Below are positions 19,955-47,708 of a DNA stretch of 64,000 bases, piece after piece. Source of the DNA: Tridacna crocea (taxonomy: Eukaryota; Mollusca; Bivalvia; Cardiida; Cardiidae). Below the pieces are notes generated by a model. The model saw nothing but the letters and a program-made list of their open reading frames with translations, made no database searches and was not told where the DNA came from. The DNA is taken from positions 6,833,501 through 6,897,500 of the forward strand of contig OX031060.1 in NCBI GenBank assembly GCA_943736015.1, written 5' to 3'. Positions within the stretch are counted from its first letter, which is position 1; each line of letters begins with the position of its first letter. A program made the translations under genes and the position numbers.

Positions 19955-20850
19955 ATCAGAACCTTGATCTAGTTCTACAGAGGCTAGGGGAAGCGGGGCT
20001 GAAACTTAAACCCAAAAAATGCCATTTGTTTTAACATAAGGTAGAATTTCTAGGACACGTAGTTTCTGAAGAAGGTATTAGTACAAACCCGAAGAAAATC
20101 GATTGTGTTCGCGAATGGCCATTGCCATCAAATATTAAGGAAGTACGGTCATTTTTGGGATTATGCAGTTACTACCGGAGGTTCATAGAAAACTTCTCCA
20201 AAATAGCCAAGCCTCTGTTTAAGGTGTCTGAAAAGAATGTAAAATTTGACTGGGATGAGAAGTGTGAGAACGCCTTCAGCGCACTTGCGAAAATGTTGAC
20301 CGAAAGCCTAGTACTGTCCCACTCAGACTTCTCTAACAGCTTTATTCTTGAAACTGATGCATGTAATGATTCCATCGGAGCAGTTATTTCACAGAAGATT
20401 CAGGACAAAGAAGTTGTAATAGCATATGCAAGCAGGACTTTGACAAAGTCTGAACGCAAATATTGTGTGACCCGCAAAGAAATGCTTGCACTGGTACACT
20501 TAGTGAAATACTTCAGGCATTATCTTATTGGAAAGCCATTTCTTGTCCGAACAGACCATGGGTCTTTGCGATGGTTAATGAACTTTAAAAACCCTGAGGG
20601 GCAAGTTGCTAGATGGTTGGAAACCTTATCATCCTATAACTTCAGTATTGAGCATCGTCCTGGGCGTCGCTATGGGAACGCAGACGGGATTAGCAGGATC
20701 CCTTTCAGGCAGTGTGGCCGTAGCGAAGCAGTGGAAGAAATTCAAACTCATAGAATCTTACCTATGAATTCATTTCAATGCGGAGAGAAAATTTCAAGTA
20801 GGGATTTAAATCTTCCATTGCAAGATGCTCAAGACGCAAATCAAGATATT
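19955..20850 (+). pseudogene. Gypsy RT thumb and RNase H
   Basis: The frame resumes after the hAT element with LGEAGLKLKPKKCHLF, a TAA at about 20032, and EFLGHVVSEEG. It is then open from 20122 onward. KEVRSFLGLCSYYRRFIENF is the classic RT-connection motif. The RNase H-like domain follows: ILETDACNDSIGAVISQ, IAYASRTLTKSERKYCVTRK, ALVHLVKYFRHYLIGK, RTDHGSLRWLMNFKNPEGQ, and ends with IEHRPGRRYGNADGISR. The open frame stops at the LINE inserted at 20851. The catalytic acidic residues of the RNase H fold appear retained. Confidence 0.9.
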
Positions 20851-21440
20851 GCCCCCAGCTGGGCGGGGGGATAGAAATAGCTCAGCTGTCGCACTATAGA
20901 AGGGGTAAGACCCCCCCACTGTGCCTGCCTGTTTGCCGTAGGCTGCAACTCGTGTCGTTTGATGACGGGATCCTGGTGGTTGAGTGGATTCAGAGCTCGG
21001 CCCTTTGATAGCTTTGTTTACACAACACACCACTTCGGCCTTGAACTGAACTAAACGAGGGGTCAGAAAGGCCCGTTCTGATCAACCGGCTGGTCGCGCC
21101 GTGCCCTAGGGTGTTTCTTTTTGTTTACTTTCACACATACATACACAGATACACCATTTCTCTGTCATCAGTTTCTGTATGTCAATACCCTAGAAGGCGG
21201 TGGCTCATGGGCTAATCGGGTGAAAGCTTGGTGTTTGATTGACACTTGTAAATGCCTAAAGACAGTCTATGCTTGGTATGACATTCTGCGGGCCTACATT
21301 TGTCCAGTCTAGCCCTTTCACTTTGAGTATATCACCGATGTATCCTTGTCATGATCTGAGTTAGGTTTCCCCAGATCATGTCCCCTTGTTGGGCTCCGAG
21401 GCGGGTGGGGAGCATCGGTGATGAATATTTAACAACAACT
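20851..21440 (+). promoter_or_regulatory. LINE copy 1 5' UTR
   Basis: A GC-rich start (gcccccagctgggcgggg) is followed by tgatgacgggatcctggtgg and, further on, gaaggcggtggctcatgggc. The last two are also present in copy 2. Full-length LINEs carry an internal promoter here, but no specific promoter element can be pointed out. The open frame at 21378 starts upstream of the conserved ATG at 21441 and is probably not used. Confidence 0.6.
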
Positions 21441-22943
21441 ATGGCTTCTCAAAAAAAGGCCAAGCGTGTACTCTCCGACTCAGATTCGGAATCAGAATAC
21501 TCAAGACCTTCAACAACATTTGCTCGCTTTTTAGTTATTGAAGCTATTGACTCTTCTAAACCAGTTACAAAACTCTCACCTTTTATCATTGAAAAATCTA
21601 TCTCTTCAATATTAGGCACACCAAAATCTGTTAAAAAACTTAAAAATGAAACCTTACTTGTTGAGTGCTACTCGCAACAACAAGTCAGAAACCTGCTTGG
21701 ACATAAGAAACTTTTCAATCTTGATGTCAAAATCTTTCCCCACAAGACCCTTAATACCTCCAAGGGAGTCATTAGATGCAAAGAATTAAGCTACTGTGAC
21801 TCCTTGGAGGAAATCAAATCAAACCTCAAAAACCAGGCTGTGTCTGATGTGAAAAGAATTTCAGTTCTCAGAAATGGCATTCGTAGAGATACACATACAT
21901 ACATCTTGACATTCTCTACGCCAACTCTGCCTACATCTGTTAAAGTTGGATTTCAATCGGTTAAGGTCGATGTTTATGTGCCTAATCCGTTGCGCTGTTA
22001 TAGATGCCAACGGTACGGACATCATGAAAGTAATTGAAGAAGCACACCTGTTTGTCCCAGGTGTGCTTTTGAAGGCGAAGACCATGACCAAAAGACTTGC
22101 AATAACCCCCCTCTCTGTGTCAATTGCAAGTCCTCTCATCCTACCTTTTCCAAAGAATGTTCTGTTTGGAAAGATGAGAAAGAAATCCTCTCAGTCAAGT
22201 TTAAGGAGAATGTTACCTTCTTGGAAGCCAGGAAAACAGTTGAAAAACGCAGGTCTGATCAGGCTTTGTTGAGCAAAAGCACAACCTATGCAAATGTTGC
22301 TTCTCCTTTGCCTGCAAATGGACATTGTCCAACCTGCGAACTGTTGGCCAAAAAACTTCTCCAAAAGTTTCCTGAAATGACTGATGAACTGAAAGCTCTC
22401 ATCCCAAATGTCCAAGTTGCAACACCTTCTACTCAGACTCGGCCTGCATCTGAAACAAATAAAACTTCTTCTGTACCCTCAAAACCCACAAATTCTCAAA
22501 GTACCTCTTCACAAAAAACCTCAAAACCATCTACCTCCTCACAAAATATCTCTTCGAAAAAAGCTTCAAAAGCATCTGCCCCTTCACAACAGACACCAAA
22601 GAAACCACAACCTACATCTTCACAGCCTACAACCAAATCCAACGTCACATCTAAAGACAATCCTAATCATACACCCCGACCTCCAAAAAGGTCTTCTTCC
22701 AAATCCAAACCACAAACTAAAGATAACCAAGGATCTTGTGAAATCACAGTGAAAGTAAATGATCCTGTCCCTACCTCCAACAGATTTTCGGAGCTAGAGG
22801 ACATGGATGCAGATACAGAAAATTTGGAAGGTGAGGTTTCAGATTCAGAAGCCTCTATCTGGTCCACTTCCAAAGATCTTTGGAACAAGGATTTTGACGC
22901 GTGGCAATCATCCAAAGCCGAGACATCTATAATTAAATCTTAA
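21441..22943 (+). pseudogene. LINE copy 1 ORF1 (RNA-binding, zinc knuckles), one nonsense codon
   Basis: Starts ATGGCTTCTCAAAAAAAGGC, matching copy 2. An N-terminal acidic/serine patch is followed by a globular region (KLSPFIIEKSISSILGTPKS) and a CCHC zone. A single TGA at 22035-22037 replaces the fourth zinc ligand (Cys) of the first knuckle (CYRCQRYGHHESN then stop). The frame continues unbroken to TAA at 22941, through the other two knuckles and a Ser/Pro/Lys-rich tail. ORF1 proteins coat the LINE RNA. As read, this copy makes only the first ~198 residues. The change from TGC/TGT to TGA is one base, so it could also be a polymorphism or assembly error. ORF2 begins 15 bases after the stop. 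Confidence 0.88.
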
Positions 22944-22958
22944 CCAGTCTATTTTAAA

Positions 22959-25900
22959 ATGCACTGGTTTACGGCCTCGTTTTTTACTTTAGTCTTTATA
23001 CTTTCCTCATGCACTATGGATTCCATAATCCAGTGGAATTGTCGAGGTCTGAAGTCAAACTTTGACGAACTTTCACTTTTAATCAATGAGCACAAACCAG
23101 TTGCTGTTTGTCTGCAAGAAACCTTCCTTAAACGGGAGGATGATATCACCATCAAATATCATTCTGTTTACAACAAGATTTTTATCGAAGGTGAAAAAGC
23201 CAGAGGAGGTGTTTCTATTATTGTAAACAACAACATTCCTCACAAAGTTATTTCTTTAAATACAAACCTGCAAGCTGTTGCTGTCAGGTTATCTATACAC
23301 AGTGCTGTTACACTGTGTTCTTTATATCTCCCGCCAAGCATACCCATCAATGAGACCAATCTGAATGATCTCATTTCACAATTGCCATCCCCCTATATTC
23401 TTGCTGGGGACTTTAATGGTCACAATGTTATGTGGGGTTGCAATGACACCAACCAGAGAGGTCTCCAGTTGGAGAACTTCATTTCGAACAACTCTCTGTC
23501 TTTCATGAATGATAACAAATCCAAAACCTACTTGCATCCGGCAACTGGATCTTACTCGTCCATTGATTTAACATTATGCAGCCCAGTCTTACTTCCCAAC
23601 TTTACTTGGAAAGTGACTGAGGATTTGTGTGGAAGTGATCACTTCCCCATTATCTTTTCATCTACACAACCGTCCAGCAGTGTACGACCGCAGAAATGGA
23701 AGCTTTCCAAAGCCAATTGGAATAAATTTGAAACCCTATGTGAACAGACCATTACACATGATAAATTTGGAAATTGCGATGATCCTGCAAAACTTTTTAC
23801 TTCCCTATTAATTGATGCAGCTAAACAGTCCGTCCCTCAGACCTCGACAAACCCAAAACGACCTGACAAACCTTGGTACAATGATGATTGTAAACAGGCT
23901 GTCAGAGACAGAAAACAGGCCCTTAGAAAATTTAATCTCAGGCCTACCAAAGACAATCTTAACTTATTCCGTATTTCCAGGGCAAAAGCCCGTCGTACCA
24001 TTAAAGAAAATAAGCGCAAGGCCTGGAGACAATATGTCTCCAAGTTGAATAGTAGAACTACTACTAAAAAAACCTGGGATATGATCAGAAAGATCAATGG
24101 CAAAGGCCAATCCCCTCTTAATCACCTTGAAGTTAACAATACTTCATTGGAATCTCCCCAGGATATAGCTGATGCTCTTGCTGACACCTTTTGCAAAAAG
24201 TCTTCCTCTGCAAACTATTCAGAAAAGTTTCAGAGGAATAAAGCTAGAGAAAAAAAGAAAAAGCTTAATTTCAAGTCTTCGAATTCAGAGCATTATAATA
24301 AACTCTTCACTTTTAAAGAATTAAAATCTGCTCTGAATAAAGCTCATGATTCTTCTCCTGGTCCAGATAAAGTTCATTACCAGTTTTTAAAACACTTACC
24401 TTTTACTTCCCTCTCAGTTTTACTTGATATTTTTAATGATATCTGGCAGTCAGGTGATTTTCCTGCATCCTGGCGGGAGGCACTTGTCATTCCTATCCCA
24501 AAACCTGGCAAAGATGCTAGTGACCCGGCTAACTATCGGCCAATAGCTCTTACTAGTTGTCTCTGCAAGACCCTAGAACGTATGGTCAACGACAGGCTTG
24601 TCTGGTTTTTAGAAAAACACCACCTCATTGTTGATGTACAGAGTGGATTTCGTCGCCAGCGCGGCACCATAGATCATCTTGTCCGCTTTGAAACCTTTGT
24701 TAGAGAAGCCTTTATTAATAGACAGCATGTAGTATCTGTCTTTTTCGACCTTGAAAGCGCTTACGATACAACTTGGAAATACGGAATTATGAAAGACTTG
24801 CATGACTTTGGTCTTCGAGGCCGTCTTCCTCTTTTTATTTCAACCTTCTTGGATGAACGTCTTTTCCGCGTCCGAGTTGGTAATACTGTCTCGGGAGCCC
24901 GTGAACAGGAGATGGGTGTACCCCAAGGATGTATTCTCTCTGTTACACTTTTCAGTGTAAAAATAAACAGTATAGTTAAAGCTATCTGTCCTGGTGTAGA
25001 CTGTTCCCTCTATGTTGATGACTTCGTTATATGCTTCAGATCTCGAAATATGAATATTATTGAGAGACAACTTCAGCAATGTCTCAACAAATTGCAAACA
25101 TGGTCTGATGAAAATGGCTTCAGATTTTCAAAATCCAAAACTAAGTGCATGCACCTCTGTAATCTACGAGGTGTTCACCCAGATCCTGAACTGTATTTGG
25201 ACAAAACTAAAATTGAAGTCGTTTCTGAGTTTAAATTTCTTGGAGTCATCTTTGACAGAAAGCTTTCTTTCCTTCCTCACATCACTGCACTTAAAAAGAA
25301 GTGCAAGAAGGCTCTTAATCTTCTTAAGGTTGTGGCTCATTCTGAATGGGGAGCAGACCGTAAAGTCCTCTTGCGGCTTTATCGGTCTTTAGTTCGCTCC
25401 AAGTTAGACTATGGATCTGTTGTATACGGATCGGCCCGTAAATCCTATCTGAAAATTCTCGATTCTATACACCACGAAGGTCTGCGTCTTGTACTTGGAG
25501 CTTTCAGAACTTCTCCCGTCAACAGTCTCTATGTTGAGGCTAATGAACCTTCCCTTTCTTACAGGAGAGAAAAACTCTCACTTCAATATATTTTAAAACT
25601 TAAGTCGAATCGTTTTAATCCAACTCATAACGTTGTCTTTAAACCTGAATATAAACGTCTTTTTGAAAGGAAACCAAATGTTATTCCTCCATTTGGTATC
25701 CGCATGGAGCCCATTGTAGATAACCTTGGCATAGACACCGAGTCTATTGCCGACTATAAAATCTCTGAAATCCCTCCATGGACACTAAACAGTGCAGAAT
25801 TCAGATTTGACCTTGCATCTGACAAAAAGTCTGTCACGGATAGAACTGTATTTCATGCTAGATACAACGAGATAAAGGAGCATTATTTTTCCTTCAAACC

Positions 25901-26693
25901 CATCTATACAGATGGATCTAAAGAAGGCAATTCTGTAGCAGCTGCCGCTGTTTATGGACAAAGGAGCTTAAAATGCCGCCTTCCAAACAACTCCTCTATC
26001 TTCTCTGCTGAAATTAAAGCAGTAGATTTTGCCCTTAATCTAGTTGAAAGTTCTAATTCCAACCGTTTTATTATCTTTTCAGACTCTTTGTCAACATTAC
26101 AGGCCCTTTCAAATCAACGACTTGAGAATCCTTTAATCTGCAGTTTACTTGAAAGGATCTCACAAATTTCTTCTAAGAATAGACTGGTGTTCTGCTGGCT
26201 TCCAAGTCATGTAGGCATCAAAGGCAATGAAAATGCCGATAGGTCTGCCAAATCTGCACTTAACCTTCCCATTTCAGATTTTAAAGTTCCACACACTGAT
26301 TTTAAATCCTCCGTTTTATCACGTATCCAATCTTCTTGGCAATCCCAGTGGGATGCTGATATTTTCAATAAACTGCATTCAGTTAAACCATCCCTTGGTG
26401 AATGGTATCCCGTTTACAGATCTGTTCGTCGAGAAGAAGTGATAATTGCACGACTTCGAATTGGCCATTCACGCATCACACATTCCTGGCTCTTGACAAG
26501 AGATGATGCCCCTGAATGTATACCATGCAATGCAACCTTTTCTGTAAAACATATCCTACTAGATTGCATTGACTTTCAGCCAGTTCGTTCAAAATATTTC
26601 AACGTTGATAGTTTGAAAAATCTTTTTGATTCTGTCAGTGTTGAATCTATTATCGCTTTCATAAAGGAGATTGGCATTTACAATAAACTGTGA
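22959..26693 (+). CDS. LINE copy 1 ORF2: endonuclease, reverse transcriptase, RNase H
   Basis: An intact 1244-residue frame. The start may be Met20 (MDSIIQWNCRG), where the endonuclease fold begins. The first 19 residues are hydrophobic and could be untranslated. APE-type endonuclease at about 21-235: N27, QE at 53-54, GDFNG at 150-154, and SDH at 226-228. RT at about 505-765: PIPKPGKDASDPANYRPIAL, FFDLESAYD at 595-603, GVPQGCILS at 653-661, and YVDD at 685-688. RNase H at about 981-1100: D985 in YTDGS, E1018, D1042, D1094. A C-terminal CCHC (C1187, C1190, H1198, C1203) follows. The protein nicks the target and reverse-transcribes its own RNA. It is separated from ORF1 by 15 bases, so it is probably made by reinitiation. 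All catalytic residues are present. Confidence 0.95.
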   Translation: MHWFTASFFTLVFILSSCTMDSIIQWNCRGLKSNFDELSLLINEHKPVAVCLQETFLKREDDITIKYHSVYNKIFIEGEKARGGVSIIVNNNIPHKVISLNTNLQAVAVRLSIHSAVTLCSLYLPPSIPINETNLNDLISQLPSPYILAGDFNGHNVMWGCNDTNQRGLQLENFISNNSLSFMNDNKSKTYLHPATGSYSSIDLTLCSPVLLPNFTWKVTEDLCGSDHFPIIFSSTQPSSSVRPQKWKLSKANWNKFETLCEQTITHDKFGNCDDPAKLFTSLLIDAAKQSVPQTSTNPKRPDKPWYNDDCKQAVRDRKQALRKFNLRPTKDNLNLFRISRAKARRTIKENKRKAWRQYVSKLNSRTTTKKTWDMIRKINGKGQSPLNHLEVNNTSLESPQDIADALADTFCKKSSSANYSEKFQRNKAREKKKKLNFKSSNSEHYNKLFTFKELKSALNKAHDSSPGPDKVHYQFLKHLPFTSLSVLLDIFNDIWQSGDFPASWREALVIPIPKPGKDASDPANYRPIALTSCLCKTLERMVNDRLVWFLEKHHLIVDVQSGFRRQRGTIDHLVRFETFVREAFINRQHVVSVFFDLESAYDTTWKYGIMKDLHDFGLRGRLPLFISTFLDERLFRVRVGNTVSGAREQEMGVPQGCILSVTLFSVKINSIVKAICPGVDCSLYVDDFVICFRSRNMNIIERQLQQCLNKLQTWSDENGFRFSKSKTKCMHLCNLRGVHPDPELYLDKTKIEVVSEFKFLGVIFDRKLSFLPHITALKKKCKKALNLLKVVAHSEWGADRKVLLRLYRSLVRSKLDYGSVVYGSARKSYLKILDSIHHEGLRLVLGAFRTSPVNSLYVEANEPSLSYRREKLSLQYILKLKSNRFNPTHNVVFKPEYKRLFERKPNVIPPFGIRMEPIVDNLGIDTESIADYKISEIPPWTLNSAEFRFDLASDKKSVTDRTVFHARYNEIKEHYFSFKPIYTDGSKEGNSVAAAAVYGQRSLKCRLPNNSSIFSAEIKAVDFALNLVESSNSNRFIIFSDSLSTLQALSNQRLENPLICSLLERISQISSKNRLVFCWLPSHVGIKGNENADRSAKSALNLPISDFKVPHTDFKSSVLSRIQSSWQSQWDADIFNKLHSVKPSLGEWYPVYRSVRREEVIIARLRIGHSRITHSWLLTRDDAPECIPCNATFSVKHILLDCIDFQPVRSKYFNVDSLKNLFDSVSVESIIAFIKEIGIYNKL

Positions 26694-27270
26694 TATTTAC
26701 TCTGGAGTTTCTTACCCATCTTTTTACAACATTCTTTGCTTCATTAATATTAAGTTTGCATCTCCTTAATGGGAGGATTGGCTCTCTTGGAGACATCTTA
26801 TCTCATTGGAGACAGGACCTCTTTAATGGGAGTATCTTATCCCATTGGAGGCCCCAATCTTTATCACTTTTAACCTCATTTCCAAGGAAAAACAATATTA
26901 TCAATCTTACCTTTTAACCTAAAGCTTTGGAGTAGGCAGGGACACCCAGCCACTCAATATCATATTTTATGCACATTATAAATGACACATTTTTTTTTCA
27001 TTTAAAAAACTTCTTTTTATCAAACCAGCACTGAGTTTAAACCTTTTTATCACATTCTTAAATCTTATCATTTAAAACTTTTGAGTATATAGGGATTGCC
27101 CTGTAACTCGATGATGCCCTTTATGCATTAAATTTTCTTAATTCAATTCTTTTATTGTCATTCAAACTTTATTCAGTTTAAACAACTCCACGTTTATCTA
27201 TCTTTTAACATAGATATGCGCGCTAAATGACCAAAGTTGTCGATGCGCCATAAAACAACATTCATTCATT
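26694..27270 (+). other. LINE copy 1 3' UTR
   Basis: About 577 bases ending aagttgtcgatgcgccataa, aacaa and cattcattcatt. Regularly spaced words (cttaatgggaggattgg, ctcattggaga, ttaatgggagtatc) form short direct repeats at about 26764-26850. The last ~60 bases resemble the tail of the SINE at 33077-33559 and are probably the region recognised by the RT. Confidence 0.75.
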
Positions 27271-27531
27271 CAAATCAAGATATTTCAAAGGTCAAACAAT
27301 GGTTAAGGGATAGTAAAAGGCCGGACCAGGAAGAGATTAGTGGAGAAAGTTTCTTTCTAAAGGCTCTATGGAATCAGTGGGAGCGGCTCAGTAAAGTTGA
27401 TGGGTTACTCATGAGGAAATGGGATGTCTTAGGAACATCAATTACGAATTGGCAAGCAGTTGTCCCATTGTCATTAAGGAGGGAGGTCCTGAAGTACTGC
27501 CATGATGTAAATGCATCCGGTCATCTTGGGG
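27271..27531 (+). pseudogene. Gypsy integrase N-terminal zinc-binding region
   Basis: Continuation of the Gypsy frame after the LINE: DISKVKQWLRDSKRPDQEEI, then LRREVLKYCHDVNASGHLGV, which holds the two histidines of the HHCC integrase finger. It is cut by a SINE after 27531. The two cysteines follow on the other side at about 27890. Confidence 0.85.
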
Positions 27532-33060: not shown

Positions 33061-33076
33061 GGATGTGGTTTTCAGA

Positions 33077-33559
33077 ATGAATGAATGAATGAATAGTGTT
33101 TTAAGGCCCGTCGACAACTTGGGTCATATTGGGCGCACTTACAATAATGTTAGGTGAAAATAACATACATGTCGAACAACACAAGACAAAGATGATAAAT
33201 GAGGAATGGATGAAACACAAAATGATGCCCCTTTTGTCGCCTTTTACGACATGCATGCTGTCACTTTTGTTCCGCCAGATGAAATGGCAGATGTGACGAT
33301 CGCGGGACTGCAGTGGTTTATTCTTATACCCCCGATTAAACCACACGGGGTCCCACAGGCCAATTGATTCCCATTCCAAACCCTATTTACACTGAGAAAA
33401 AAATATAGGATTTGGAATAAGAACTACCCAGCCTGCTGCAATCCTACGAATTACGAGGAAAGCAGCCGTTTGTCTCTAATTTTAGTCGCCTTCTACGACA
33501 TGCCATAGAGAAAGGCCGAGGTCCTATTCTATACAATAAAAACCCCCGGGACCCCACGG
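33077..33559 (-). mobile_element. dimeric SINE-like retroposon with LINE-like tail
   Basis: 483 bp flanked by a 16-bp duplication (ggatgtggttttcaga) at 33061-33076 and 33560-33575. Read on the minus strand, it contains two related units. Each has a gggaccccg-type start, a gggggt plus tagaata-like segment and a gcatgtcgta(g/a)aaggcgac block. It ends in aagttgtcgacgggccttaa, aacac and (ATTC)n. The final ~60 bases resemble the 3' end of the LINEs in this window. No tRNA-type promoter is obvious, so the origin of the head is unknown. Confidence 0.8.
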
Positions 33560-33575
33560 GGATGTGGTTTTCAGA

Positions 33576-41132: not shown

Positions 41133-41777
41133 CCCCCCCCCCCCCCCCCCCAGCCGGGTAGGGGGAATAGAAAAAATCCCGGTTGTAGTCCTGCAGAGTG
41201 GTAAAACCCCACCGAAAAGGACCTGCCCGTTTGCCGTGGGCTTGCGACCCGTGTCGCCTGATGACGGGATCCTGGTGGTTGAGTGACATCAGGGATTGGC
41301 TAGGCCCTGTACTTACAACACACCACTTTGGCCCAAAGTTGGGCTAAACGGGAGGTCAGGAAGGCCCGTCCTGATCAATCGGCTGGTCATGCCTTGCCCT
41401 AGGACATCTGATATACTCTTTCTTTTACATCCTTTTCTCAGTTAAATTTACCATCTTCTCCACATTCTAATCCTACATAAGTATATCACACTCTTTCAGA
41501 TGTTGTATTTCTTATTTAGCCCTAGAAGGCGGTGGCTCATGGGTCAATCGGGTGAAAGTTTTTTGGTATTTGGCTGACATTTGTAAACTCTCAATGATCG
41601 TCTAAGCTTGGTAGGACTTTCTGCGAGAATGCATCTGTCCAGTCTAGCCCTTTCATACCGAGTATACCATTGATGTATCCCTGTCATGGTCTGCGAATGG
41701 GTTTTCCCCAGACCATGTCCCCTCGTTGGGCTCCATGGCGGGTGGGGAACATCGGTGGTGAAACTTAAAACACAAAC

Positions 41778-43286
41778 ATGGCATCCCAAAAAAAGGCCAA
41801 GCTCAATGAAAGCAAGCGCCCCCTTTCAGACAGTGACTCTGAAACAGAAACTTCACTTCCTTCATCTTATCAATCTCCACGTTTTATTGTTATCCAATCT
41901 CAAGATCATTCAAAACCTATAACTAAACTCTCTCCATTCATTATAGAAAAACAAATCTCTAGTATCCTTGGTACACCAAAATCAGTTAAAAAACTTAAAG
42001 ACCAGACCCTACTAGTTGAATGTTTTACAAATCAACAAGTACTGAATCTTTTAAAAAAGACCAAGTTTTTTGACATAGACGTTAAAATTTTTCCTCATCC
42101 TTCACTTAATTCTTGTAAAGGAGTAATTAGATGCAAAGAGCTTGCATACTGCGACTCCTTACAAGAAATTAAAGACAATCTAAAACAACAAGGTGTATCC
42201 GATGTTCAGCGGATTTCTGTACGCAGAGATGGAGAACAGAGACTGACACATACATACATTTTAACATTTTCTTCGCCTATTCTTCCAACCTCTATCAAGA
42301 TAGGCTTCCAAGTAGTCAAAGTAGATGTGTATGTGCCGAACCCCTTGCGATGCTTTAAGTGCCAGCGGTACGGCCATCACATCAGTAAATGTCCGAACCA
42401 AGAAACATGCTCAAAATGTGCTCATCAAGGACCTGACCATGACAGTACTACTTGTTCAAATCCTCCTTTCTGCATTAATTGCAAATCTGCACACTCTACT
42501 TTTTCAAGAGAGTGTCCAGTATGGAAGGAAGAAAAAGAAATTCTTTCTATTAAATATAACAATAATGTTACCTTTCCAGAGGCAAGGAAAATATTTGAAC
42601 AACGCAAGAAAACCTCTTCTGGTCCTAGTTATGCAGGTGTTGTTGGCTTGTCAACTGAAAAGGACGACTGCAGCACTTGTAAAATTCTTGCGAAAGTTCT
42701 ACTTCAAAAATTTCCTGATGTAGCTTCTGAACTGAAAGAACTTCTTCCTCCATCCACCTTGTCCAAACTAATTCCTGACTCTCCATCTGTATCTAAAACA
42801 AACACAACCTCTTCGGCATCCTCAAAACCCACAAACTCTCAAAATAGTTCGTCTCAAAAAACTTCAAAGCCATCTACACCTTCACAAAATTCTTCACGGA
42901 AAACTCCAAAGCCATCTACCTCTTCACAACCACCTCCTAAGAAACCACAACCTCCATCTTCACAGTCTACAACAAAACCTAACGTCTCATCCAAGGATAA
43001 CAATCCCAATCATACACCCCGACCTCCTAAAAGGTCTTCTTCCAAATCTAAACCACAATCTAAAGATAACCAAGGATCTTGTGAGATCACAGTCAAAGTA
43101 AATGATCCTGTCCCTACCTCCAACAGATTTTCGGAGCTAGAGGACATGGACGCAGATACTGAAAATCTGGAAGGTGAGGTTTCAGATTCAGAAGCCTCTA
43201 TCTGGTCCACTTCCAAAGATCTTTGGAACAGGGATTTTGACGCGTGGCAATCGTCCAAAGCCGAGACATCTGTAATTAAATCTTAA
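41778..43286 (+). CDS. LINE copy 2 ORF1: RNA-binding protein with three zinc knuckles
   Basis: 502 residues. Residues 1-35 are Lys then Ser/acidic-rich. Residues 36-190 form a globular region ending VKVDVYVPNPLR, probably an RRM-like fold by analogy with other ORF1 proteins. Knuckle 1 is C192, C195, H200, C205. Knuckle 2 is C211, C214, H221, C226. Knuckle 3 is C232, C235, H239, C246 with a non-standard spacing. Residues 340-450 are a Ser/Thr/Pro/Lys-rich linker with repeated SSQ and KPST words. The last 50 residues are acidic and identical or nearly so in copy 1. It likely coats the LINE RNA in ribonucleoprotein particles. The ATG is chosen because it aligns with copy 1. ORF2 starts 15 bases after the stop. 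Confidence 0.93.
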   Translation: MASQKKAKLNESKRPLSDSDSETETSLPSSYQSPRFIVIQSQDHSKPITKLSPFIIEKQISSILGTPKSVKKLKDQTLLVECFTNQQVLNLLKKTKFFDIDVKIFPHPSLNSCKGVIRCKELAYCDSLQEIKDNLKQQGVSDVQRISVRRDGEQRLTHTYILTFSSPILPTSIKIGFQVVKVDVYVPNPLRCFKCQRYGHHISKCPNQETCSKCAHQGPDHDSTTCSNPPFCINCKSAHSTFSRECPVWKEEKEILSIKYNNNVTFPEARKIFEQRKKTSSGPSYAGVVGLSTEKDDCSTCKILAKVLLQKFPDVASELKELLPPSTLSKLIPDSPSVSKTNTTSSASSKPTNSQNSSSQKTSKPSTPSQNSSRKTPKPSTSSQPPPKKPQPPSSQSTTKPNVSSKDNNPNHTPRPPKRSSSKSKPQSKDNQGSCEITVKVNDPVPTSNRFSELEDMDADTENLEGEVSDSEASIWSTSKDLWNRDFDAWQSSKAETSVIKS

Positions 43287-43301
43287 CCAGTCTATTTTAA
43301 A

Positions 43302-46300
43302 ATGCATTGGTTTACGGCCTCGTTTTTTACTTTAGTCTTTATACTTTCCTCATACACTATGGATACCATAATCCAATGGAATTGTCGAGGTCTGAAGTCA
43401 AACTTTGACGAACTTTCACTTTTAATCAATGAGCACAAACCAGTTGCTGTTTGTCTGCAAGAAACCTTCCTTAAACGGGAGGATGATATCACTATCAAAT
43501 ATCATTCTGTTTACAACAAGTTTTTTACCGAAGGTGAAAAAGCCAGAGGAGGTGTTTCTATTATTGTAAACAACAACATTCCTCACAAAGTTATCTCTTT
43601 AAATACAAACCTGCAAGCTGTTGCTGTCAGGTTATCTATACACAATGCTGTTACACTGTGTTCTTTATATCTCCCGCCAAGCATACCTATCAATGAGACC
43701 AATCTGAATGATCTCATTTCACAATTGCCATCCCCCTATATTCTTGCTGGGGACTTTAATGGTCACAATGTTATGTGGGGTTGCAATGACACCAACCAGG
43801 GAGGTCTCCAGTTGGAGAACTTCATTTCGAACAACTCTCTGTCTTTCATGAATGATAACAAATCCAAAACCTACTTGCATCCAGCAACTGGATCTTACTC
43901 TTCCATTGATTTAACATTATGCAGCCCAGTCTTACTTCCCAATTTTACTTGGAAAGTGACTGAGGATTTATGTGGAAGTGATCACTTCCCCATTATCTTT
44001 TCATGTACACAACCGTCCAGCAGTGTACGACCGCAGAAATGGAAGCTTTCCAAAGCCAATTGGAATAAATTTGAAACCCTATGTGAACAGACCATTACAC
44101 ATGATAAGTTTGGAAATTGCGATGATCCTGCAAAACTTTTCACTTCCCTATTAATTGATGCAGCTGAAAAGTCCGTCCCTCAGACCTCGGCAAACCCAAA
44201 ACGACCTGACAAGCCTTGGTACAATGATGATTGTAAACAGGCTGTCAGAGACAGAAAACAGGCCCTTAGAAAATTTAATCTCAGGCCTACCAAAGACAAT
44301 CTTAACTTATTCCGTATTTCCAGGGCAAAAGCCCGTCGTACCATTAAAGAAAGTAAGCGCAAGGCCTGGAGACAATATGTCTCTAATTTGAATAGTAGAA
44401 CTACTACTAAAAAAACCTGGGATATGATCAGAAAGATCAATGGCAAAGGCCAGACCCCTGTTAGTCACCTTGAGGTTAACAATACTTCGTTGGAATCTCC
44501 CCAGGATATTGCTGATGCTCTTGCTAACACCTTTTGCAAAAAGTCTTCCTCTGCAAACTATTCAGAAAAGTTTCAGAGGAATAAAGCTAGAGAAGAAAAG
44601 AAAAAGCTTAATTTCAAGTCTTCGAATTCAGAGCATTATAATAAACTCTTCACTTTTAAAGAATTAAAATCTGCTCTGAATAAAGCTCATGATTCTTCTC
44701 CTGGCCCAGATAAAGTCCATTACCAGTTTTTAAAACACTTACCTTTTACTTCCCTCTCAGTTTTACTTGATATTTTTAATGATATCTGGCAGTCAGGTGT
44801 TTTTCCTGCATCCTGGCGGGAGGCACTTGTCATTCCTATCCCAAAACCTGGCAAAGATGCTAGTGACCCGGCTAACTATCGGCCAATAGCTCTTACTAGT
44901 TGTCTCTGCAAGACCCTAGAACGTATGGTCAACGACAGACTTGTCTGGTTTTTAGAGAAGAACAACCTCATCGTTGATGTACAGAGTGGGTTTCGTCGCC
45001 AGCGCGGCACCATAGATCATCTTGTCCGCTTTGAAACCTTTGTCAGAGAAGCCTTTATTAATAGACAGCATGTAGTATCTGTCTTTTTCGACCTTGAAAG
45101 CGCTTACGATACAACTTGGAAATACGGAATTCTGAAAGACTTGCATGACTTTGGTCTTCGAGGCCGTCTTCCTCTTTTTATTTCAGCCTTCTTGGATGAA
45201 CGTCTTTTCCGTGTCCGAGTTGGTAATACTGTCTCGGGAGCCCGTGAACAGGAGATGGGTGTACCCCAAGGATGTATTCTCTCTGTTACACTTTTCAGTG
45301 TGAAAATAAACAGTATAGTCAAAGCTATCTGTCCTGGTGTAGACTGTTCCCTCTATGTTGATGACTTCGTCATATGCTTCAGATCTCGAAATATGAACAT
45401 TATTGAGAGACAACTTCAGCAATGTCTCAACAAATTGCAAACATGGTCTGATGAAAATGGCTTCAAATTTTCAAAGTCCAAAACTAAGTGCATGCACCTC
45501 TGTAATCTACGAGGTGTTCATCCAGATCCTGAACTTTATCTGGACAAAACTAAAATTGAAGTCGTTTCTGAGTTTAAATTTCTTGGAGTCATCTTTGACA
45601 GAAAGCTTTCTTTCCTTCCTCACATCACTGCACTTAAAAAGAAGTGCAAGAAGGCTCTTAATCTTCTTAAGGTTGTGGCTCATTCTGAATGGGGAGCAGA
45701 CCGTAAAGTCCTCTTGCGGCTTTATCGATCTTTAGTTCGCTCCAAGTTAGACTATGGATCTGTTGTATACGGATCGGCCCGTAAATCCTATCTGAAAATT
45801 CTCGATTCTATACACCACGAAGGTCTGCGTCTTATACTTGGAGCTTTCAGAACTTCTCCCGTCAATAGTCTCTATGTTGAGGCTAATGAACCTTCCCTTT
45901 CTTACAGGAGAGAAAAACTCTCACTTCAATATATTTTAAAACTGAAGTCGAATCGTTTTAATCCAACTCATAACGTTGTCTTTAAACCTGAATATAAATC
46001 TCTTTTTGAAAGGAAACCAAATGTTATTCCTCCATTTGGTATCCGCATGGAGCCCATTGTAGATAACCTTGGCATAGACACTGAGTCTATTGCCGACTAT
46101 AAAATCTCTGATATCCCTCCATGGACACTAAACAGTGCAGAATTCAGATTTGACCTTGCATCTGACAAAAAGTCTGTCACGGATAGAACTGTATTTCATG
46201 CTAGATACAACGAGATAAAGGAACATTATTTTTCCTTCAAACCCATCTATACAGATGGATCTAAAGAAGGCAATTCTGTAGCAGCTGCCGCTGTTTATGG

Positions 46301-47036
46301 ACAAAGAAGCTTAAAATGCCGCCTTCCAAACAATTCCTCTATCTTCTCTGCTGAAATTAAAGCAGTAGATCTGGCCCTTAATCTAGTTGAAAGTTCTAAT
46401 TCCAACCGTTTTATTATCTTTTCAGACTCTTTGTCAACATTACAGGCCCTTTCAAATCAACGACTTGAGAATCCTTTAATCTGCAGTTTACTTGAAAGGA
46501 TCTCACAAATTTCTTCTAAGAATAGATTGGTGTTCTGCTGGCTTCCAAGTCATGTAGGCATCAAAGGCAATGAAAATGCCGATAGGTCTGCCAAATCTGC
46601 ACTTAACCTTCCCATTTCAGATTTTAAAGTTCCACACACTGATTTTAAAGCCTCCGTTTTATCACATATCCAATCTTCTTGGCAATCCCAGTGGGATGCT
46701 GATATTTTCAATAAACTGCATTCAGTTAAACCATCCCTTGGTGAATGGTATCCCGTTTACAGATCCGTTCGTCGAGAAGAAGTGATAATTGCACGACTTC
46801 GAATTGGCCATTCACGCGTCACACATTCCTGGCTCTTGACAAGAGATGATGCCCCTGAATGTATACCATGCAATGCAACCTTTTCTGTAAAACATATCCT
46901 ACTAGATTGCATTGACTTTCAGCCAGTTCGTTCAAAATATTTCAACGTCCATAGTTTGAAAAATCTTTTTGATTCTGTCAGCGTTGAATCTATTATCGCT
47001 TTCATAAAGGAGATTGGCATTTACAATAAACTGTGA
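43302..47036 (+). CDS. LINE copy 2 ORF2: endonuclease, reverse transcriptase, RNase H
   Basis: An intact 1244-residue frame differing from copy 1 at about 31 positions by eye, none at catalytic residues. Layout: APE-type endonuclease (about 21-235, SDH at 226-228), a basic linker (about 305-375, rich in Arg/Lys), RT (about 505-765, FFDLESAYD, YVDD at 685-688), a thumb region, RNase H (D985, E1018, D1042, D1094) and a CCHC at 1187-1203. The RNase H after RT is a mark of the I superfamily. Met20 (MDTIIQWNCRG) is the more likely start, because the endonuclease fold begins there. The enzyme acts at the genomic target, nicking DNA and priming cDNA synthesis. Confidence 0.95.
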   Translation: MHWFTASFFTLVFILSSYTMDTIIQWNCRGLKSNFDELSLLINEHKPVAVCLQETFLKREDDITIKYHSVYNKFFTEGEKARGGVSIIVNNNIPHKVISLNTNLQAVAVRLSIHNAVTLCSLYLPPSIPINETNLNDLISQLPSPYILAGDFNGHNVMWGCNDTNQGGLQLENFISNNSLSFMNDNKSKTYLHPATGSYSSIDLTLCSPVLLPNFTWKVTEDLCGSDHFPIIFSCTQPSSSVRPQKWKLSKANWNKFETLCEQTITHDKFGNCDDPAKLFTSLLIDAAEKSVPQTSANPKRPDKPWYNDDCKQAVRDRKQALRKFNLRPTKDNLNLFRISRAKARRTIKESKRKAWRQYVSNLNSRTTTKKTWDMIRKINGKGQTPVSHLEVNNTSLESPQDIADALANTFCKKSSSANYSEKFQRNKAREEKKKLNFKSSNSEHYNKLFTFKELKSALNKAHDSSPGPDKVHYQFLKHLPFTSLSVLLDIFNDIWQSGVFPASWREALVIPIPKPGKDASDPANYRPIALTSCLCKTLERMVNDRLVWFLEKNNLIVDVQSGFRRQRGTIDHLVRFETFVREAFINRQHVVSVFFDLESAYDTTWKYGILKDLHDFGLRGRLPLFISAFLDERLFRVRVGNTVSGAREQEMGVPQGCILSVTLFSVKINSIVKAICPGVDCSLYVDDFVICFRSRNMNIIERQLQQCLNKLQTWSDENGFKFSKSKTKCMHLCNLRGVHPDPELYLDKTKIEVVSEFKFLGVIFDRKLSFLPHITALKKKCKKALNLLKVVAHSEWGADRKVLLRLYRSLVRSKLDYGSVVYGSARKSYLKILDSIHHEGLRLILGAFRTSPVNSLYVEANEPSLSYRREKLSLQYILKLKSNRFNPTHNVVFKPEYKSLFERKPNVIPPFGIRMEPIVDNLGIDTESIADYKISDIPPWTLNSAEFRFDLASDKKSVTDRTVFHARYNEIKEHYFSFKPIYTDGSKEGNSVAAAAVYGQRSLKCRLPNNSSIFSAEIKAVDLALNLVESSNSNRFIIFSDSLSTLQALSNQRLENPLICSLLERISQISSKNRLVFCWLPSHVGIKGNENADRSAKSALNLPISDFKVPHTDFKASVLSHIQSSWQSQWDADIFNKLHSVKPSLGEWYPVYRSVRREEVIIARLRIGHSRVTHSWLLTRDDAPECIPCNATFSVKHILLDCIDFQPVRSKYFNVHSLKNLFDSVSVESIIAFIKEIGIYNKL

Positions 47037-47695
47037 TATTTACTCTTGAGTTTCTTACCCATCTTTTTACAACATTCTTTACTTCATTAATATTCAGTTT
47101 GCATCTCCTTAATGGGAGGATTAGCCCTCTTGGGGGCATCTTATCTCATTGGAGACAGGACCTCTTTAATGGGAGTATTTGATCCCATTGGAGGCTCCAA
47201 TCTTTACCAGTTTTAACCTCATTTCCAAGGAAAAACAATATTATCAGTCTTGCCTTTTAATCTAAAACTGTTGAGTAGGCAGGGAATGCCCAGCCACTCA
47301 ATATCATATTTTATGCACATTATAAATGACACATATTTCTTTTTCATTTAAAAAAACTTCTTTTTATCAAACCAGCATTGAGTTTAAACCTTTTTATCAC
47401 ATTCTTAAATCTTATCATTTAAAACTTTTGAGTATATAGGGATTGCCCTGTAACTTGATAATGCCCTTTATGCATTCCTCTTAATTCAGTTCTTATCATT
47501 TAAAACATTTGAGTATATAGGGATTGCCCTGTAACTCGATGATGCCCTTTATGCATTAAATTTTCTTAATTCAATTCTTTTATTGTCATTCAAACTTTAT
47601 TCAGTTTAAACAACTCCACGTTTATTATCTTTTAACATAGATATGCGCGCTAAATGACCAAAGTTGTCGATGCGCCATAAAACAACATACATTCA
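47037..47695 (+). other. LINE copy 2 3' UTR with a 66-bp tandem duplication
   Basis: Equivalent to the 3' UTR of copy 1. A segment (cttatcatttaaaac to ctttatgcatt) is present twice, at 47411-47476 and 47492-47556, but once in copy 1. The final tail aagttgtcgatgcgccataa plus acattcat is shared with copy 1. Confidence 0.85.
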
Positions 47696-47708
47696 TTTGG
47701 CCATTTTA

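Follow-up and report, generated by a model that had tools for sequence, protein, structure and literature searches.

The closest described systems to the element considered here are the SINE-LINE pairs in which a short dispersed element has the same 3' end as a LINE (PMC3747384, Table 1). CR1 and RTE are given as the predominant partners in that review, most of the SINE heads in its Table 1 are derived from tRNA, and one pair with an I-clade LINE (Gecko) and one with a Vingi LINE are listed. LINEs of the I superfamily are rarely reported as SINE partners. Gecko, with the I-clade LINEs of Aedes (PMC3747384), and SINE3-1_TC, with the I clade in Tribolium (PMC7245038), resemble the present case in having a partner LINE within the I group, although Gecko has a tRNA promoter (PMC3747384) and SINE3-1_TC is 5S-derived (PMC3272025), features not recognised here; both come from other animals, and Nimb, the clade to which the LINEs described below probably belong, forms its own clade within the I group. 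Zebrafish Nimb-2_DR, to which these LINEs are likened by description rather than by sequence, belongs to the Nimb clade of the I group and has an ORF1 and an ORF2, with 11 of 30 inserts at full length and target-site duplications of 10-15 bp, peaking at 12-13 bp (PMC4245944), in agreement with the lengths found here. The available text of that report mentions no SINE partner of Nimb-2_DR, and no Nimb-partnered SINE was found described in the titles and abstract openings of the open-licence literature. EhLSINE of Entamoeba and SINEX of Chlamydomonas carry a LINE tail and have their promoter listed as unknown (PMC3747384), as here, but differ from the present element in host and LINE clade. The V, Meta, Deu and MIR SINEs of bivalves, including RUDI, are possibly from the same host group; those curated in PMC10294476 required a tRNA-related head, which was not found here, and they are set apart on this description only. 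According to a paper of 2023, just three of the eight families of bivalve SINEs had a known LINE donor (PMC10294476).

The locus analysed here lies in a stretch of 64,000 nucleotides, referred to below as the window, in which the following features were assigned.

20851..27270, plus strand: window LINE copy 1 (family N1), with duplication CAAATCAAGATATT; ORF2 open over 1244 aa, ORF1 region over two listed frames
27213..27264, plus strand: tail of LINE copy 1 (N1), a homologue of the SINE tail (blastn)
33061..33076, no strand: target-site duplication on the 3' side, an exact 16 bp of which at least 13 are certain
33077..33562, minus strand: SINE-like element, young subfamily A, full length (genome copies and duplications compared)
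33077..33090, minus strand: ATTC/CATT terminal repeats at the 3' end, read from the sequence
33091..33142, minus strand: putatively LINE-derived tail GTAAGTGCGCCC...AAAACACTATTC, with 3/56 mismatches to LINE-B1 and 13/56 to the window LINE
33106..33134, minus strand: predicted stem-loop with outer stem GCCC/GGGC, inner stem UGAC/GUCG and 7-nt loop CCAAGUU (minimum free energy (MFE) folds)
33368..33423, minus strand: long body hairpin, arms 33368-33386 and 33405-33423 (84% complementary), also obtained from the fold
33481..33503, minus strand: first copy of the internal repeat GCATGTCGTAGAAGGCGACTAAA; second copy at 33232-33254, 91% identical
33560..33575, no strand: 5' target-site duplication, ambiguously overlapping the first 3 bases of the element
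41133..47695, plus strand: window LINE copy 2 (N1), with ORF1 of 502 aa, ORF2 of 1244 aa and duplication TTTGGCCATTTTA
47640..47691, plus strand: tail of LINE copy 2 (N1), a homologue of the SINE tail (blastn)

Like the pairs of PMC3747384 Table 1, the element is short and dispersed and shares its 3' end with a LINE; here the SINE and the LINE also both end in the same short repeats. It is unlike most of those pairs in that the LINE is of the I superfamily and no head was recognised. The element is about 486 bp long and, on the minus strand, runs from TCCCCGTGGGG at 33562 to the CATT/ATTC repeats. A preliminary description had placed it at 33077-33559; the element itself proved real, whereas its 5' end has been moved to 33562. 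Since other copies begin these 3 bases earlier, 3 of the 16 duplicated bases are ambiguous and the duplication is of 13-16 bp.

Copies of the element were sought in the genome assembly (1.05 Gb, 31 contigs). The best 40 of 2,574 first-look candidates show 97-100% identity and lie on many contigs and, on this sequence evidence, the window copy is a member of a young family. A motif from the SINE body occurs 1,012 times in the genome; no copy of the SINE motif was found in prokaryote assemblies and none of the SINE tail in viral contigs. Full-length copies form two subfamilies with consensuses 2.9% apart. Subfamily A (n=8), which includes the window copy, lies 0.4-1.4% from its consensus and the older subfamily B (n=19) 0.4-4.4%, in comparisons that include a few flanking bases and exclude one copy of 81% identity (L021). 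It had been foreseen that the tail similarity might fade to background in a SINE consensus, but the consensuses of both subfamilies retain the tail, and the genome contains 1,440 instances of the exact tail pattern and 0 of a reversed control pattern. On one 77-Mb contig (C1), 50 of 70 body-motif matches are followed by the exact tail, five more by a looser tail pattern (matched up by eye) and a further one (L095) by a tail that varies at one base, leaving 14 of the 70 without assignment. The stem-loop pattern is present in 25 of 27 full-length copies; because the tail itself served to fetch 18 of these 27, this count is biased, and the figure from body motifs on C1 is the fairer one. One copy, L033, ends in a run of A in place of the CATT repeats (at about 1524-1550), yet has a 13-bp duplication.

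The 16-bp duplication of the window copy had been read as fitting a LINE-type insertion, and the wider set of copies bears this out. Duplications of 8-16 bp (median 13) flank 22 of the 23 full-length copies that begin at position 1, reaching at least 11 bp in 21 of them. When flanks were swapped among copies only 3 of 506 combinations reached 8 bp and none of the 506 reached 11 bp. No duplication was found at L005, nor at L021, which begins at position 3. Copies truncated at the 5' end, a set of 13 from which two LINE loci and one duplicate row had been excluded, have duplications in 12 cases, four of these with one mismatch (6/156 with swapped flanks); L012 is the truncated copy at which none was found. 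At L022, little beyond the tail alone has been inserted. Duplications together with 5' truncation are the marks that would be expected of target-primed reverse transcription starting in the tail. The element is short, dispersed and non-autonomous, with target-site duplications.

The preliminary description had noted a resemblance of the tail to the 3' termini of the two window LINEs, and this was confirmed by blastn against the window: SINE positions 423-478 match 27217-27272 (84% over 56 nt, E 2.2e-10) and positions 423-476 match 47644-47697 (81% over 54 nt, E 1.2e-8), with further matches, among those listed, at E 0.03 or worse. It had also taken these two LINEs as the partner, a choice that a better match to another LINE family would count against, and such a family was found. 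Over 56 positions, representative tails of subfamilies B and A have 1 and 3 mismatches to LINE-B1 as against 12 and 13 to the window LINE N1, and subfamily B has 0 mismatches to LINE-B1 within the 35-nt stem-loop core. All eight other LINE tails compared are worse than that of LINE-B1, those of B2 to B5 being intermediate and that of B6 equal to N1. The tail core AGTTGTCGACGGGCC is present in all 30 of the best-scoring LINE-B1 loci, and each of 20 LINE-B copies of greater divergence has the tail or a variant of it. N1 is therefore retained only as a rival partner, and the likely lender of the enzyme, to judge from the tails, is probably LINE-B1, a relative of the two window LINEs. As LINE-B1 is related to the window LINE (62% aa identity in ORF2), the proposal that the SINE parasitises a resident LINE survives with a different partner: tail sharing, duplications and the implied dependence on a LINE enzyme are well supported at the level of sequence, while the named partner is probably the wrong one.

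The census of C1 gives a view of what carries such a tail. There are 78 exact tails, 50 after a SINE body motif and 28 not; these figures are for the exact pattern, and a looser pattern lists further C1 tails beyond them. Thirteen of the 28 are of window-LINE type by their letters, six of them in fetched loci (L013, L015, L016, L017, L023 and L025) and seven by letters only. The other 15, judged from fetched sequence, comprise 11 SINE copies with an altered or missing body, two LINE-B1 copies, one window-type LINE (L098) and the tail-only L022. A tandem pair of LINE-B1 tails, the second following a short truncated 3'UTR, was observed at L052 (2859-3024).

The ORF2 of LINE copy 2 has Pfam matches to endonuclease, reverse transcriptase (RT) and RNase H. 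Its ORF1 is without a Pfam match, and a CX2CX4HX4C knuckle was read from it directly. This combination of ORF2 domains with a CCHC-bearing ORF1 is what we take to define the I superfamily, to which N1 would then belong. A PDB search of ORF2 gave human L1 ORF2 as the best match, which is not informative as to clade. N1 is probably Nimb-like, Nimb being preferred because it and Ingi are the named I-superfamily clades across molluscs, beside one further, unknown clade (PMC10294476). One copy each of LINE-B1 and N1 compared over ORF2 gave, besides the overall figure, 61% aa identity in the endonuclease-to-RT stretch and 76% in the RT. In some copies of LINE-B1 the ORF2 frame is open over 1248-1273 aa; divergence from the LINE-B1 consensus is 1.9-3.6%, with the nearest pair 0.07% apart. 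The open frames and this close pair suggest that LINE-B1 has probably been active recently. The insertion site of LINE copy 1 lies within a frame resembling Ty3/gypsy RT/RNase H (20122-20874; identified by eye), and copy 2 starts with a run of 19 C (41133-41151), longer than that of copy 1.

The reading that we favour, with a probability of roughly 0.7, is of a non-autonomous SINE-like retrotransposon whose tail would come from, and whose copying would be performed by, the LINE-B lineage of I-superfamily, probably Nimb-like, LINEs. In this model the last ~55 nt before the SINE repeats would derive from the LINE-B 3' end, having passed from LINE to SINE, and the LINE-B ORF2 enzyme would recognise a stem-loop common to both tails, nick the target DNA and prime at the ATTC/CATT repeats, producing duplications of ~13 bp on insertion. 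It is preferred on account of the near-identical tails with no similarity detected upstream, the LINE-type duplications, which extend to truncated copies, the low divergence among copies of both SINE and LINE, and the open LINE-B ORF2 frames.

The lack of upstream similarity also bears on whether the element might simply be an internally deleted LINE with no body of its own. Such derivatives are known (PMC6740152), and an element that ends in a LINE tail and has no recognised Pol III head would not look out of place among them. The body, however, has no significant similarity to the 5' regions of N1 or B1, the LINE regions with which it was compared, and over the 160 nt before the tail the alignment with the LINE-B1 3'UTR is at the level of shuffled sequence (its score was reached by 105 and 92 of 300 shuffles in two copies). 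What looked in some blast matches like similarity with the LINE-B 3'UTR before the tail was at this level. The sole match to the LINE-B1 locus L089 is weak (E 4e-4), in reverse orientation, and falls outside the LINE, upstream of its 5' end. An origin by internal deletion is therefore regarded as improbable. More remote still is convergence or chance as the source of the tail similarity: the stretch concerned is short, with simple repeats at its end, but the tail of the older subfamily differs from that of LINE-B1 at 1 of 56 positions, and the stem-loop pattern has 1,608 genome matches as against 0 for the reversed control, so that we attach almost no likelihood to it.

The tails are predicted to fold with an outer stem of GCCC/GGGC (GCGC/GCGC in N1) enclosing UGAC/GUCG and a 7-nt loop. 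All 7 MFE folds computed for tails contain the outer core, and 6 of them also form the inner stem; in the fold of the whole element the stem-loop is present in the MFE structure, and the centroid retains the outer stem only. A shared predicted stem had been put forward as a mark of partnership and is indeed common to the SINE and LINE tails, but its statistical support is weak: the energy is not below that of shuffles (z -1.5 to 0.0), and covariation is confined to one double compensatory pair (C-G to G-C in N1) with a score reached by 168 of 500 column shuffles. Sliding the partner columns lowers pairing from 95.9% to 23-56%, a test that lends weak support because the structure was derived from the same sequences. 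The truncated N1 copy L098 has an A-U pair where the stem varies; this was not accepted as additional covariation, since only two genome matches have that A, one of them unpaired, and both positions lie in CpG sites.

The predicted loop is CCAAGUU in the young SINE, CAAAGUU in N1 and CUAAGUU in B1, so that the young SINE is one base from each, while the loop of subfamily B is identical to that of B1. In the L2 LINEs of fish (zebrafish), PMC4176376 reports that ORF2 binds its cognate stem-loop, which is required, and that the loop is recognised strictly whereas swaps of the stem are tolerated. If, by analogy, this mode of recognition carries over to the present LINEs, it would cut both ways for a scheme in which the tail came from LINE-B and N1, the LINE of the window, now mobilises the SINE through the stem-loop architecture common to both. 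Tolerance of stem swaps and a loop one base away would allow for this, but a strict reading of the loop would not favour it, given that the older subfamily has exactly the B1 loop, and outside the loop the SINE tail is far closer to B1 than to N1.

Genomic distribution is what keeps mobilisation by N1 in contention. LINE-B is clustered, with 72 of the best 112 scored ORF2 matches in C2:5.0-12.8 Mb (a block on a second contig amounting to 0.7% of the genome). N1 is dispersed and not enriched there (2 of its 111 best-scored matches) and appears recent, these 111 being at 97-100% aa identity and including many 1249-aa frames. The SINE is dispersed in the same way: none of its best 40 copies is in the block, and the body motif, at least 5 matches in the 7.8 Mb of the block against at least 70 in the 77 Mb of C1, is present there without being enriched. 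The contrast between LINE-B clustering and SINE dispersal is not predicted by a common enzyme alone. If LINE-B is the source of the enzyme, either its long copies have been lost elsewhere or N1 does part of the work, and for this reason current mobilisation by N1, unlikely as we consider it, is given appreciably more credit than internal deletion. Several families are represented among the LINE-B matches in the block, with identities as low as ~57%, and many of these matches have an open ORF2.

With LINE-B still preferred as the source of tail and enzyme, the head of the element stands as its unusual part. ARAGORN found no tRNA genes in the window, and an Rfam search to E 5 returned six matches, all to microRNA families and below the gathering score, with none to tRNA, 5S or 7SL. 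No B box was found in the SINE with up to three mismatches, and one exact A-box-like string is present at consensus position 222. These searches (ARAGORN, Rfam and boxes) thus yielded no tRNA, 5S or 7SL head, and no Pol III-derived head with an internal promoter, although a strongly diverged head could escape detection. A Pol III origin of the element is accordingly doubtful. The preliminary label of SINE is borne out by the short length, dispersal, duplications and LINE tail, but is only partly earned since no Pol III-type head was found. Taken together, the sequence comparisons show a real SINE-like element with an unusual head, which most likely parasitises LINEs of the LINE-B type.

How such an element is transcribed becomes a separate question when there is no Pol III head. 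In animals, Pol III terminates at stretches of at least four T. Of 27 SINE copies, 26 have seven or more consecutive T in the loop of the body hairpin (the exception, L033, has five) and, were this rule to hold here, Pol III would terminate ahead of the tail; another polymerase, presumably Pol II, is thereby suggested as the one that transcribes the element.

In the window copy the T7 run (33397-33403) is in the loop of the long body hairpin. The RNA of the whole element is predicted to be strongly structured (MFE -160.8, z -5.45, none of 100 shuffles as stable). One tentative idea, which we think rather doubtful as it stands, is that a structured non-coding RNA of non-Pol III origin was captured by the tail of a Nimb-type LINE, giving an undescribed kind of SINE-like mobile family; two LINE families whose stem pairs mirror each other (C-G versus G-C) would then compete for this one parasite or share it. 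The genome in any case offers, side by side, SINE subfamilies of low divergence and several LINE families with a common predicted stem-loop; because the LINE families differ at a few positions of loop and stem, tail recognition by the enzyme should be directly testable.

The internal repeat motif GTCGTAAGAGGCGAC and two similar variants returned no mention in a text search of the literature. Within the body the two GCATGTCGTARAAGGCGAC copies (33232-33254 and 33481-33503, 91% identical) are 249 bp apart and each is preceded by a GTGGG-rich stretch, such that the SINE body has the appearance of a diverged dimer.
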